Shown here piece by piece: positions 39,524-44,219 of a DNA stretch of 45,718 nucleotides. Source of the DNA: an uncultured Planctomycetaceae bacterium (GTDB taxonomy: Bacteria > Planctomycetota > Planctomycetia > Planctomycetales > Planctomycetaceae); NCBI GenBank assembly GCA_903896675.1, contig CAITYU010000307.1, positions 1 through 45,718 of the forward strand. Reading direction: 5' to 3'. The notes under the pieces were generated by a model. That model was not told the origin of the DNA and made no database searches. It worked only from the letters and a program-made list of their open reading frames with translations. The translations under genes were made by a program, and so were the position numbers. The first letter of the stretch is position 1. Every line of letters begins with the position of its first letter.

Positions 39524-39880
39524 TCAGTCCTGCTTCATCTCTGCAGGCCTGTCCGACTCCGGCCCAACCACCGACTCCGGCTTCGCACGACCAGAGACCC
39601 CGGGATGTCGAACGCCGTCCCTCGTATGCAGTGACTGTCGCTCCATCCTCAGCACCACCTGCCGCACAGCCAGCACTGCCGAAATAACACCCAGCACACC
39701 ACCGCAGATCGTCAGCACTGGCAAGCATCCGTAACGCTGGTCCAGCCAGTACCCTCCGTACGTCAGCAAACCGGCTGACAAGGACGCCGATAACAACTCA
39801 TGCGCCGTACGATATGATTCACCAATCGATTGCCCGTGGTCCCGACGATTCCGCTCGCCACCGCCCGGCTCGAAACTCAT
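39524..39880 (-). CDS. atpZ: AtpZ/AtpI-type ATP synthase accessory protein
   Basis: A 118-residue protein with two hydrophobic helices: LLSASLSAGLLTYGGYWLDQRYG, carrying the GYWLDxxxG signature of the AtpZ (F0F1-ATPase Ca/Mg-transport-associated) family, and LPVLTICGGVLGVISAVLAVRQV. A hydrophilic tail of about 45 residues follows. Family members are proposed to help c-ring assembly or magnesium entry. Its ATG overlaps the stop of the upstream DUF11 gene (TGATG), implying coupling. Confidence 0.85.
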   Translation of the reverse strand: MSFEPGGGERNRRDHGQSIGESYRTAHELLSASLSAGLLTYGGYWLDQRYGCLPVLTICGGVLGVISAVLAVRQVVLRMERQSLHTRDGVRHPGVSGRAKPESVVGPESDRPAEMKQD

Positions 39881-41805
39881 CAGGGCTGTACCTCGGTGCG
39901 AATTTCACCGATCAGTGGCTGAGCTGTACTTGCACTCGCCACGCGGATTCGACTGCTGTTCAGCCCCGCACGGCCACAGCGAACCTGCAACAGAAATTCG
40001 GCCGATTTCCCGGCCGCAATCTCCGGTAGTGATCGAAACACCAGCACGCCGTTTTCTGCGATGTAGTCCGACGGGCCCTCGACGTCGATCAGAGTCATTC
40101 CAGCAGGCAGCTCGCAGGACATACCGACCGAACGAGCCGGCTCGGAACCCGCGTTGCGAATCAGTACTCTGAGTGTCGTCTGTTGACCGCTTCTCGCCAC
40201 CGAACCCGCTCCCGCTGGCAAAGACGCCAGTTCCAGCCTCAGGTCAGCACTGCCCTCCACCTGCGTCACCTCCTCGGTTGAAGCCAGCTCGCCAAAGTCG
40301 GTCTGCGCGGTGATTCGATGAGCACTGCGACCACTTTTTCCAGCCTGCAGCATGGCCGTAAACTCTGTCGTCTCGCCAGGATTCAGAGTCCCCACGTACC
40401 ACTCGACACTGCGATCCGTCGCCAGATATCGGCCACCACGGTCCGCCGAAACAAACTGAAAGCCCGCCGGTAACTGGTACCGTGCCCTGACGTTGGCCGT
40501 TGCCACGATTCCTGTGTTCTCCAGTTGCAGCACGTAACTGCCCGGTTGCCCGGCAATCTCCTGATCTGGCACCTGCAAGGCCAAACGCAACTCCGGCTCA
40601 GCAACCTCCACCTTTGCCGTCGCCTCCGCCAGCAACTCACCCGTCCCCGCAGCCTTCAGTTCAATCTCCTGCATCCCGCCAGCTGTTGCAGTCAGCGACA
40701 GTCGAGCCTTTCGCGATTCACCGGGATTCAGTGTTCCAATGTCAATCGTCACCACAGCACCGGATTTGTGCTCAAGCCCCTCCGGCAGGCTGGCCACCAG
40801 CACCACATCCTCAGCCCGCCCCGTTCCGGGATTGCTCACTTCCACCATGACTGATGTCTGCTGACCCAACTCGGAATCCTCCGGAGCCGCCACGGACAAG
40901 GCCAGCTTCGGTTCAGTGATGCTGAGCCGACAGACCGCAGCAGCACTCACCGACAAAGCGGCCTCAAGACGCTGCTCACCCGCCGACTGCGGACGAATCC
41001 TCAGCGAGATTTCCCGGGATTCTCCCGCTCGCAGGCTGCCCAGAGCCCACCGCAATTCCCCGCCGTCCGCGTGCTCGGCAGGCGGTTCAGTCTCCAGCAG
41101 CTCCACCTCAACCGGACACAACACTTCCGCCACTGCACCAAACAGCGTCGCTGCACCGGAATTGCGAATTACCAACTGCGCCGTGCATTCTGCCCCCGGA
41201 GTCATCTCAGCAGGATATATCCACTCAATCGAAGCCATCGGCTGCTGCGAACCGGCGGAATCCGTGATTGGACGGTCCTGCCGGCGTGGCACTGCCATGG
41301 CATCAGGTCGTTCAGCCGGCTTGCCGGCTTGCTCGCTGACAGCAGGCACGCGTCCCGGCTCCGCTGCTACGGGTCGCTTCTGAGCCCGCGGCTGCGGCAA
41401 CTCAGGCTCCACCGTTTCCAGAAAACCGCTGGCATCCTCACCTCCAGCCCTGAAACCCATCAACTCAATCGGCCTCCGCTCAGCCAAAGACCCCTTCGCC
41501 GGGTTCTCAATTTCGCGGCTGAGCACCGCCGGACGAATCTTTTCTCGCATCGGCACATGTCGGGATACAGGCTCGGATTCAGCCTGCGAACCTCCCGTCA
41601 AACCTGACGTTGTCGCCCGCTCCGTCGAGGCTGGCACCGGCACACCCGAAAATGTTGTCATGCTGGCGCCGGAAGCGCGCCGCGGCAATGGCCGCACTGT
41701 CTGCTGACGCATCCGGTCCGCAAGCGTCGACTGCTGAGCAGCAGCGATGTCAGTTGTCAGCACACCGATCACAGCCGCCAGCAGACACAATTCCCGTAAT
41801 GGCAT
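39880..41805 (-). CDS. Secreted DUF11/CARDB-like repeat protein
   Basis: A 641-residue exported protein: signal peptide (LRELCLLAAVIGVLTTDIAAAQ), a Pro/Arg/Ser-rich region up to about 200, then four to five Ig-like DUF11 (conserved repeat) domains of about 90-110 residues. Each shows the pattern of an N...G.A strand, a L-P-x-G segment and a LxPGES-type turn, as in SNPGTGRAEDVVLVASLPEGLE, GTLNPGESRKARL, YQLPAGFQF, GTLNPGETTEFTA and CELPAGMTL. The domains are likely structural, at the cell surface or in the periplasm. Its stop overlaps atpZ by one base, so it heads the ATP synthase transcript, though no link in function is evident. Confidence 0.88.
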   Translation of the reverse strand: MPLRELCLLAAVIGVLTTDIAAAQQSTLADRMRQQTVRPLPRRASGASMTTFSGVPVPASTERATTSGLTGGSQAESEPVSRHVPMREKIRPAVLSREIENPAKGSLAERRPIELMGFRAGGEDASGFLETVEPELPQPRAQKRPVAAEPGRVPAVSEQAGKPAERPDAMAVPRRQDRPITDSAGSQQPMASIEWIYPAEMTPGAECTAQLVIRNSGAATLFGAVAEVLCPVEVELLETEPPAEHADGGELRWALGSLRAGESREISLRIRPQSAGEQRLEAALSVSAAAVCRLSITEPKLALSVAAPEDSELGQQTSVMVEVSNPGTGRAEDVVLVASLPEGLEHKSGAVVTIDIGTLNPGESRKARLSLTATAGGMQEIELKAAGTGELLAEATAKVEVAEPELRLALQVPDQEIAGQPGSYVLQLENTGIVATANVRARYQLPAGFQFVSADRGGRYLATDRSVEWYVGTLNPGETTEFTAMLQAGKSGRSAHRITAQTDFGELASTEEVTQVEGSADLRLELASLPAGAGSVARSGQQTTLRVLIRNAGSEPARSVGMSCELPAGMTLIDVEGPSDYIAENGVLVFRSLPEIAAGKSAEFLLQVRCGRAGLNSSRIRVASASTAQPLIGEIRTEVQP

Positions 41806-42116
41806 CTCGGCAACTCCCGACAGTTCCCCGGAAAACCCAGAATCAACAACCCGCAGTCACAACTCGGGCGCAACTCCACCACAACACCTCTATGTTCGAA
41901 TTTTCAGGTTCAACGGCTTAAATCGATCCGAACATCTGGGCGGTTTATGCTGACTTTCACGATTGCATCGAACTTTCCGCGACTGTCAACAGTCGCACAC
42001 ATCGGCATTTTTTGCCTTGCCGAGCATTCCGCCGCGTCCCCCAACCGCGGACGCATCCCTGAAAACCCGCATTGTCTGCCATCACAGCAAACTCAAACCT
42101 GGGTCACAGGATGGTG
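41806..42116. other. Intergenic region, probable promoter of the ATP synthase operon
   Basis: About 310 bp with no recognisable gene. It lies upstream of the DUF11 gene on the minus strand and should hold that operon's promoter. TTGAAC at 41910-41915 (minus strand) has no well-spaced -10 partner, so I do not call a promoter. Confidence 0.4.
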
Positions 42117-42606
42117 TGGGGGCCAGTGAGCCACCCACCGGGGCCAGCCAACGGGGCCAGCCAACGGGGCCAGCCAACGGGGGCCACCCACCGGGGCCAG
42201 CCACCGAGACCAGCCAACGGGGGCCAGCCACCGAGGCCAGCCACCGAGGCCAGCCAACGGGGGCCAGCCACCGGGGCCATCCACCGAGGCCATCCACCGA
42301 GGCCATCCAACGAGGCCATCCAACGAGGCCAGCCAACGGGGGCCAGCCAACGGGGGCCAACCAACGGGGGCAAGCCAACGGGGGACATCCACCGGGGCCA
42401 TCCATCGGGGCCATCCATCGGGGCCATCCATCGGGGCCATCCATCGGGGCCATCCATCGGGGCCATCCAGCGGGGGGCCATCCAACGGGGACAGCCAACG
42501 GGGACAGCCAACGGGGACAGCCATCGGCGGACAGCCATCGGCGGACAGCCATCGGGGCGAGCCATCGGGGGACATCCATCGAGGGACATCCATCGAGGGA
42601 CATCCA
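42117..42606. repeat. 13-bp minisatellite, about 36 copies
   Basis: A tandem array of a degenerate 13-bp unit with consensus CCATCCATCGGGG or CCAGCCAACGGGG. Five exact copies of CCATCCATCGGGG occupy 42398-42462. Variants are grouped: CCAGCCAACGGGG on the left, CCATCCACCGAGG near 42285-42330, CCATCCATCGGGG in the centre, ACAGCCAACGGGG, ACAGCCATCGGCGG and ACATCCATCGAGGG on the right. Unit length varies by one or two bases in the G run. The block structure points to growth by local duplication. Plus-strand T is rare on the left side. There are no spacers, so it is not a CRISPR array. Confidence 0.93.
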
Positions 42607-42734
42607 AAACAGGCCATCCACAAAAGACGCACACCATAGACTCACACCCGCGATACCCTGGTTCACTTGCCACTTGCAATTCCCTGCATACGACTGTGTA
42701 ATCTCACAACCACCCGCTGCACTCTCCCCCACAC

Positions 42735-44219
42735 ATGGCGTCTCCACGCCAGCCGCAACCCGCCACCATGCCCCCACGCAACACATCACAGCGCCTCAAT
42801 CAACGGCCTCGCCGAGCACTCCTGGCGGAGATCGGGGGAGGATTCGGACTCACGGCACTCGCCGATCTGCTGGCCGCTGATGAACCATCCGGCACCCCCG
42901 CGGTGAAACCACCAGAAACCAGCGGCCTGCATCATCCCGCAAAGGTCCGCCGAGTCATTCAGTTGTTTATGACTGGCGGTGCCAGCCCCATGGACCTGTT
43001 CGACTACAAACCGGAACTCGAACGACTGCACGGTCAGATGATCGGCCCGCAGGACAAACCCGAAGGCTTCACTGCGCCCGCCGGGGCCGTGATGAAAAGT
43101 CCGTTCACTTTCGCTCAATACGGCGAAACCGGTCGCTGGGTCAGCGAACTGTTCCCGCACCAGGCAAAAGTCATCGATGAGCCCGCGTTCCTGATGGCCA
43201 TGACCGGACGCACCAACGTCCATGGCCCCGCCAGTTATCTCGCCTGTTCCGGATTTACACTGCCCGGATTTCCCTGCTTCGGCGCGTGGGTTTCCTACGG
43301 TCTCGGCAGCCTGTCTCAGAACATGCCGGCCTTCGTCGTTCTGCCCGACCCCCGCGGATTACCCTACAACCAGAAGGGCAATTTCAGCGCCGGTTTCCTG
43401 CCTGCCAACCATCAGGGCACGGTCGTCGATGCCTCAGCCAGCCCGCCGATTCCCGATCTGCAGGCCGACAGCCGCTATGGATTTGCTCGTGGCCAGGCGG
43501 ACCGGGAGACTCTGACCGCCCTGCAAAACCTCAACCGCCGTCACGCCGCCCGCTACCGTGGCGACAGCCGCTTCGAAGCCCGTATTGCTGCCGCTGAACT
43601 GGCCGCAGCCATGCAGCTCAGCGCCCCCGAAGCCTTCGATCTTGCCACCGAATCCGAAACGACCCAGCAGGCCTACGGGCTGAACCAACCAGAAACTCAG
43701 GACTTTGGCCGACGCTGCCTGCTCGCCCGACGCCTGATTGAACGCGGTACCCGCTTCGTGCAGGTCTGGAGCGGTCCGCAGGGAGCCGTCAATAACTGGG
43801 ATAACCACGGCAATATTCAGACCGAACTGCCGCCCATGGCCCGCAGTGTCGATCAACCCATCGCCGCTCTGCTCACAGACCTGCAGCAGCGGGGACTGCT
43901 GGCCGACACACTGCTGATCTGGACCACGGAATTCGGACGAACCCCCTTCGCGCAGGGCTCACTGGGACGCGACCACAACAGCGGCACTTTCGTCACGTGG
44001 CTGGCCGGCGCCGGCATTCGCAAAGGCACCAATTGGGGACGCAGCGATGACCTCGCATACCAGACCGCAGAAGGCAAGACCTGGGGTTACGACCTGCACG
44101 CCACGATTCTGCACCTGCTGGGTATTGATCACCTCCGCCTGACATTTCGCAATTCGGGAATCGATCGACGTCTGACCGACGTGCACGGTCGAGTGATTCA
44201 CGAAATCCTGTCCGGCTGA
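42735..44219 (+). CDS. DUF1501 family protein (planctomycete secreted sulfatase-like fold)
   Basis: A 494-residue protein; an alternative ATG at 42768 would shorten it by 11 residues and neither start has a clear ribosome site. The leader QRPRRALLAEIGGGFGLTALADLLAAD has the Tat-like pattern usual for DUF1501. Landmarks are VIQLFMTGGASPMDLFDYKPEL, NVHGPASYLACSGFTLPGFPCFGAWVSYGLGS, CLLARRLIERGTRFVQVWSG, WDNHGNI and LLIWTTEFGRTPF followed by GRDHNSGTFVTWLAG, the metal-site-like motifs it shares with alkaline phosphatase/sulfatase relatives. Usually such genes follow DUF1549/DUF1553 genes; here it stands alone downstream of the minisatellite. Function unproven. Confidence 0.92.
   Translation: MASPRQPQPATMPPRNTSQRLNQRPRRALLAEIGGGFGLTALADLLAADEPSGTPAVKPPETSGLHHPAKVRRVIQLFMTGGASPMDLFDYKPELERLHGQMIGPQDKPEGFTAPAGAVMKSPFTFAQYGETGRWVSELFPHQAKVIDEPAFLMAMTGRTNVHGPASYLACSGFTLPGFPCFGAWVSYGLGSLSQNMPAFVVLPDPRGLPYNQKGNFSAGFLPANHQGTVVDASASPPIPDLQADSRYGFARGQADRETLTALQNLNRRHAARYRGDSRFEARIAAAELAAAMQLSAPEAFDLATESETTQQAYGLNQPETQDFGRRCLLARRLIERGTRFVQVWSGPQGAVNNWDNHGNIQTELPPMARSVDQPIAALLTDLQQRGLLADTLLIWTTEFGRTPFAQGSLGRDHNSGTFVTWLAGAGIRKGTNWGRSDDLAYQTAEGKTWGYDLHATILHLLGIDHLRLTFRNSGIDRRLTDVHGRVIHEILSG

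Follow-up and report, generated by a model that had tools for sequence, protein, structure and literature searches.

RAYT/TIRYT-type transposase terminal words as the probable source of a non-coding 13-bp minisatellite in a planctomycete

We consider it probable that the intergenic array described here is a non-coding minisatellite composed of terminal words of RAYT/TIRYT-type transposases (HUH Y1 enzymes) and enlarged by slippage. The window, that is, the whole stretch of DNA analysed (45,718 nucleotides), is an entire contig (C307) of a genome of 5.89 Mb that is 95% complete and divided into 589 contigs (G000). Going beyond what the letters of the window alone can tell, we found that the unit of the array is a member of the end-word family of transposase genes of the RAYT/TIRYT type in this genus, sharing a core of 10-13 bases with the words that flank these genes. 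The array separates a DUF1501 gene from a divergent DUF11-domain gene (Table 1), and the minus-strand run beyond the latter comprises the genes for the a, alpha and beta subunits of ATP synthase. Among named records, the nearest relatives of the DUF1501 gene are planctomycete MAGs, and plasmid records gave no match.

Table 1. Features of the array and its surroundings in the window.
Feature	Location	Strand	Remarks
DUF11-domain gene, 641 aa, divergent	39880..41805	-	upstream of ATP synthase gene run
Array left edge, degenerate	42111..42138	+	
Tandem array, 35 head-to-tail units	42139..42607	+	Tandem Repeats Finder and segmentation
Five identical units GGGGCCATCCATC	42394..42458	+	identical to bases 1-13 of the A-type end-word GGGGCCATCCATCTGT (sister genomes G012, G013)
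Three units GGGGACAGCCA(A/T)C	42487..42525	+	GGGGACAG agrees with the TIR consensus GGGGWSAS from the literature
Array right edge, degenerate, CAGGCCATCCAC	42608..42623	+	
Promoter-like element TTGCAA-17-TGTAAT	42674..42702	+	between array and DUF1501 gene; conserved in G003 and G011
DUF1501 gene, 494 aa	42735..44219	+	PF07394, 1.7e-129

A minisatellite is made up of units of about 10-60 bp that follow one another head to tail with high identity, and this is how the array is built. Tandem Repeats Finder recognized a period of 13 with 33.1 copies and 88% matches at 42130-42570, and segmentation by hand gave units of 13 bp (22), 14 bp (12) and 15 bp (one), in agreement with an earlier note that had described, from the letters of the window, a large 13-bp minisatellite of about 36 copies. 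Most copies follow the consensus GGGG(A/C)CA(G/T)CCA, with CCAGCC (11 units), CCATCC (11), ACAGCC (5), ACATCC (4) or another sequence (4) as the inner word, and the GGGG end of every unit faces the DUF11 gene. The summed edit distance between adjacent units was 54; in 10,000 permutations it averaged 92.7 and never fell below 72. Neighbouring units are thus much more alike than in permuted orders, so that the blocks of like variants seen earlier are real and local expansion is indicated. The regularity attributed to the array proved less strict. The presence of 14- and 15-bp units breaks the supposed 39-bp cycle of reading frames, and the GGGG run thought to recur every 13 bases is replaced by CGAG or CGGCG in 11 of the 35 units.

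The GGGG runs had also been thought capable of unusual DNA or RNA structure on the plus strand, G-quadruplexes being one candidate. No canonical motif (four G-tracts, loops of 1-7) was present on either strand of the array, and only when loops of up to 12 were allowed did 34 overlapping motifs appear. The G4Hunter mean was 0.41. We also considered a selected structural element, either a G-quadruplex on the plus strand or a long hairpin on the minus strand. The long-loop motifs and the folding of minus-strand RNA of the array (z of -7.7 relative to shuffles) speak for such an element, but the shuffles destroy the period and thereby inflate this z, plus-strand RNA reached only -2.05, and a four-unit piece of the array and four end-words, folded as DNA, were not clearly better than shuffles (z of -1.7 to +1.1). 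We regard a structural element as very improbable. No known RNA family was detected in 41500-43000 at E<=1.

The array contains open reading frames of 305 and 209 codons on the plus strand and of 235, 191 and 179 codons on the minus strand, and within 42117-42606 all six frames are free of stop codons for 159-163 of 163 codons. The openness noted previously is therefore genuine, but its meaning is not what it might seem. Six frames remained open for at least 150 codons in 3000 of 5000 simulated arrays of shuffled units and in 2184 of 5000 arrays of random 13-mers with 60% GC, and since such arrays commonly reach this state, the six open frames carry little information. Dicodon scores were negative for all five array ORFs (-28.5 to -124.3) and positive for the two flanking genes (+150.5 and +331.6); the model was trained on 86 long ORFs, and called genes score positive by construction and were possibly in the training set. 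Coding in rotating frames was rejected on the dicodon scores together with the shuffled-array simulation. A repeat translated in one or several frames, for which the open frames are the argument, would furthermore have to accommodate the 14- and 15-bp units that break the frame, and we assign it almost no probability. We conclude that the array does not look coding, and that multi-frame openness in arrays of this kind is no evidence of coding.

We then compared the same gap in other species. The gene pair is kept in the two nearest species, G003 (DUF1501 91% identical) and G011 (85%), and the distance from the DUF11 gene to the promoter-like element is 868 bases in the window, 405 in G003 and 2295 in G011. 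The word GGGGMCA occurs 23 and 0 times on the two strands of the gap in the window (control 4), along with eight copies of GGGGCCATCC; the exact C word GGGGACACASCA (see below) is absent from this gap. In G011 the corresponding counts are 36 and 3 (control 1), and the gap includes 12 copies of GGGGACACASCA and 11 of GGGGCCATCC. The G003 gap contains two GGGGACACACCA in tandem, but the looser GGGGMCA is not above control there (4 and 0 by strand, control 4). Evidence for the word family in the syntenic gap is therefore strong in G011, whereas in G003 it is weak, and a contrast in copy number of the array is visible between species only.

TTGCAA-17-TGTAAT, a promoter-like sequence kept in three species, is a candidate promoter of the DUF1501 gene. 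The array ends 66 bp upstream of it, so that transcription predicted to start from this element would not cross the array. Its location between two divergent genes, close to a conserved promoter-like element, and the presence of the word family in the gap of all three species raise the question of whether the array is regulatory, supplying binding sites or a variable spacer and thereby adjusting the divergent promoters of DUF1501 and of DUF11/ATP synthase. Since the promoter-like block is conserved next to a gap whose length and words vary widely, and since the words are also found at transposase genes and in further gaps, we judge this function improbable. Two broader roles for the word were rejected. 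A promoter or activator site of the downstream gene was dismissed as 11 of 20 called downstream genes run the other way. A general intergenic signal of this genome was dismissed as GGGG(A/C)CANCC occurs once in 30 kb of intergenic DNA sampled from the same genome without the array of the window; from this single copy it follows that the word is concentrated in clusters.

Such clusters exist: further 13-bp arrays of the unit are found on contigs C11 and C342, and a short one on C408. The array DNA matches 8 of the 18 genomes of the genus, its own included, at E<=0.001. GGGGMCANCCA occurs 85 times in its own genome, with 12 occurrences of the reversed control, and exceeds the reversed control in all 18 genomes of the genus, at least 2-fold in 17. 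Outside the genus it is above control in 23 of 41 genomes and at least 2-fold above in eight. The arrays on C11 and C342 both stop at contig ends, and in an assembly of 589 contigs the copy number in the window may be wrong. An outright assembly artefact is nevertheless extremely improbable: a single contig spans the array by way of distinct variant units, and arrays of this word family are also present in the assemblies of relatives.

Other repeats were observed in the same genome. Longer repeats with GGGGCCACCCAAC words on one strand reach contig ends at 4100-4791 of C503 (L118; about 157 bp) and at 1-1000 of C516 (L119). A 38-bp tandem repeat at 176-512 of C30 (L125; 8.9 copies, 92% matches) has a unit unlike the 13-bp one. 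Intergenic heptamer arrays (CAGTGGT, CAGTTTT, CAGTTCT) are common, and were recorded at L115, L119, L125, L129, L168, L177, L180, L182 and L183. We know of no link between heptamer direct repeats (TAACTGA or G-rich heptamers) and a transposase. The sequence CAGTNNTCAGT occurs 67 times in 30 kb of intergenic DNA and 3 times in 183 kb of coding DNA. One of the heptamers, TCAGTTA, is the reverse complement of the TAACTGA repeat that features in PMC4679880, in whose text a word search found no planctomycete.

Searching for the words without any gene in mind led to a protein. Many of the intergenic copies inspected in G013 were GGGGCCATCCATCTGT or close to it, and some preceded, by 112-126 bp, the gene for P0001, a protein with the motifs NHFH and YVDLNP. 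P0001 matched the NCBIfam family NF047646 (REP_Tyr_transpos) with an E of 1.1e-9 and 38 bits, below the cut-off of 80, and Pfam Y1_Tnp at 0.065 only. Homologues are present in all 18 genomes of the genus. Among 34 aligned relatives, 32 matched REP_Tyr_transpos and 17 matched Y1_Tnp at E<=0.01, and N71, H72, H74, Y185 and N189 were nearly invariant. A regular expression detected both the HUH and the Y motif in 28 of the 34, among them the C375 protein of the present genome with NL for NP, only the Y motif in L287, only the HUH motif in L290-L293 and neither in L267. In the alignment, L287 has NHTH, the Y motif of L291 and L292 lacks its P, and neither site is intact in L267 and L280, each being lost or altered. 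L280 (C408 of the present genome) and L267 (C173 of G011) are long ORFs without the catalytic Y in which one and both HUH histidines, respectively, are lost; these are possibly catalytically dead, perhaps repurposed, RAYT paralogues. A profile search of solved structures returned nothing usable (best E 0.33; the transposase chain 2ec2 at 0.93). The standard Y1_Tnp family, as distinct from the divergent family of P0001, was rejected as the mobiliser: it has no member in the present genome, is found in 12 of the 18 genus genomes, and lacked GGGG(A/C)CANCC at the six loci examined.

Loci were then chosen by protein similarity, and words were counted within 700 bp of 43 genes from 54 loci. Eleven loci gave no row (L251, L266, L269, L272, L275, L281, L288, L297, L299, L300 and L301), being duplicates or partial matches or having no start near the expected place. 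Six of the 43 rows lack a downstream flank, and six more divergent genes stand outside the counts for the three subfamilies A, B and C. The subfamilies carry different words: mostly GGGGCCATCCATCTGT-like ones in A, GGTGCCA in B and GGGGACACASCA, often repeated, in C. For GGGGMCA, the 15 A genes have 15 direct and 1 inverted copies upstream and 2 direct and 7 inverted copies downstream, and the eight C genes have 31, 1, 6 and 29 in the same order. The 14 B genes have 20, 0, 3 and 12 copies of GGTGCCA and 0, 1, 0 and 2 of GGGGMCA; GGTGCCA at A genes amounts to 4, 1, 0 and 6, mostly at L295. Taken together, the 23 genes of A and C have 92 GGGGMCA words, 82 of them oriented inward and 10 outward, with 12 reversed-control words. 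At B genes, 32 GGTGCCA words point inward and 3 outward, with 3 GGGGMCA. The binomial probabilities (3e-15 for A and C, 4e-7 for B) are nominal, as words within one flank are not independent. The repeats are thus direct upstream and inverted downstream, and the genes that carry them encode the HUH motif and the catalytic Y (Y---NP), both as in TIRYT.

The arrangement was also examined without reference to a motif by aligning the upstream flank with the reversed downstream flank of the 37 genes that have both. A pair with z>=2 was obtained for 14 genes, and in 12 of these the shared word belongs to the present family: GGGGCCAKCCATCT-like at the A-type genes L250, L252, L255, L268 and L294, GGGGACACAGC at the C-type genes L263 and L285, and GGTGCCA- or TGCCATGCACC-like at the B-type genes L276, L278, L302 and L303. 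The twelfth, L295, is A by similarity and has a GGTGCCA- or TGCCATGCACC-like pair, a mismatch of word and subfamily that counts against our reading. The pairs of L259 and of the gene on C477 of the present genome are unrelated words. The other 23 genes, that on C375 of the present genome included, gave no significant pair; at C375, L279 and L270 the downstream words have both orientations or the wrong one. Many C-type flanks themselves consist of arrays, for example three 30-bp repeats at L287 and 19-bp repeats at L263. At four loci of G013 (L205, L221, L232 and L241) AAG is found about 30 positions downstream of the end-word, and GGTTTACG about 47 positions downstream in L205 and L241; these shared blocks hint at a longer non-autonomous element.

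The abundance of the C word follows the C-type gene. GGGGACACASCA occurs 14, 101, 37, 146, 119 and 123 times in G000, G003, G007, G011, G012 and G013, the genomes in which C-type genes were identified among the matches listed, where 44 gene places were typed. It occurs 0-9 times in the other 12 genomes of the genus, in none of which a C-type gene was identified, and 0-5 times in 41 genomes outside, with control counts of 0-4 in the genus; counts across the 18 genus genomes were taken regardless of phylogeny, and C-type genes in the 12 low-count genomes are possible, G010 having one partial match (44% identity) outside the typed set.

The present genome contains three relatives of P0001. The gene on C375 is of C type (NHFH and YIDLNL, with NL for NP), with GGGGACACAGCA 332 bp upstream and GGGGACACACCA 632 bp and more upstream. 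The gene on C477 is of B type with intact motifs and GGTGCCATGCACC 91 bp upstream. The gene on C408 is A-like, cut by the contig end, with NQFH, in which the first H is lost, and F for Y. An intact A-type gene was not found in this genome; the maker of A-type units may have been lost, may be missing from the assembly or may never have been present. Nor is there a transposase gene beside the array of the window, whereas in a TIRtron the gene lies between the repeats. This last circumstance speaks for an ordinary minisatellite that slippage produced out of a random G-rich stretch, in which case the resemblance to the end-words would be a coincidence or an effect of composition. The tight units, the local homogenisation and the 13/14-bp slips are as slippage gives, and the exact A-type 13-mer makes up only 5 of the 35 units, which also weighs against our own reading, as does the single direction of the units where element ends are inverted. 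On the other hand, this genome has the core at three further places, and the core exceeds control throughout the genus, occurs in the corresponding gap of the closest species, above all G011, and mostly faces inward at transposase genes. An origin from a chance seed is in our view rather unlikely.

Returning to an origin from transposase terminal words, we infer a role of the transposase from the likeness of the sequences. An end-word would have been left in the gap by the mobile system, and words would then have multiplied side by side. The tight 13-bp form would have grown and been homogenised by replication slippage or unequal recombination, and the array may have been tolerated because it lies upstream of the promoter-like element of the DUF1501 gene. 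A more direct route, which we put forward tentatively and think unlikely, is that a TIRYT-type Y1 HUH enzyme nicks on the 5' side of GGGG and, by rejoining, makes head-to-tail copies of the end-words that extend outward from the element.

TIRYT, the TIR-associated tyrosine transposases of TIRtrons, are described in PMC3733652 as having flanking inverted repeats, some of them GGGGWSAS; away from the genes, TIRs were also found in the form of dimers or clusters. In the classification given in PMC6006769, 20 of 26 TIRYT were placed in subclass 2.1 TnpAREP; for RAYT-like members of this subclass, Quentin et al. (PMC6006769) state that no REP-like partner was found nearby, that they are probably TIRYT and that further analyses are called for. 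TIRYT, which probably correspond to subclass 2.1 TnpAREP, are the nearest counterpart of the word-carrying genes. Like TIRYT, these have an HUH and Y---NP transposase, a long C-terminal part and inverted repeats. The consensus GGGGWSAS divides the words: GGGGACAG and the C word GGGGACAC fit it, the A word GGGGCCAT and the B word GGTGCCA do not. Unlike the case of TIRYT, there are three subfamilies with three words, C words form multi-copy arrays beside the gene, and the array of the window is solitary, one-directional and tight at 13 bp. The REP/REPIN-RAYT system is similar in that short words have multiplied both near an HUH transposase and at a distance from it, each type of transposase goes with its own type of word, and higher-order tandem clusters occur; RAYT-adjacent and tandem REP clusters are reported for P. 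fluorescens SBW25 in PMC3116915. The unit here is far shorter, with direct rather than inverted pairs, and whereas REP/REPIN sequences have a hairpin and a GTAG-type foot, the unit contains no GTAG and no hairpin that beats shuffles. In the portions of the TIRYT and REP/RAYT literature that we drew on, we met no solitary 13-bp one-directional array of a TIRYT/RAYT-type word. The array shares with the TAACTGA heptamer direct repeats, as presented in PMC4679880, its nature as an intergenic short-word repeat dispersed in the genome, with a different word and period. It resembles the bacterial short-repeat minisatellites and satellites outlined in PMC6749651 in being an intergenic tandem repeat whose period is not a multiple of three; unlike for those, a likely source of the unit can be named here.

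If the transposase does cut and rejoin as outlined above, gene-flanking and solitary arrays would be direct products of its action on single-stranded DNA, which would make it a minisatellite-writing bacterial enzyme. The genus offers a natural comparison: its three subfamilies have three words, and high counts of the C word are confined to the genomes with an identified C-type gene. Our results also suggest a source for a bacterial minisatellite.
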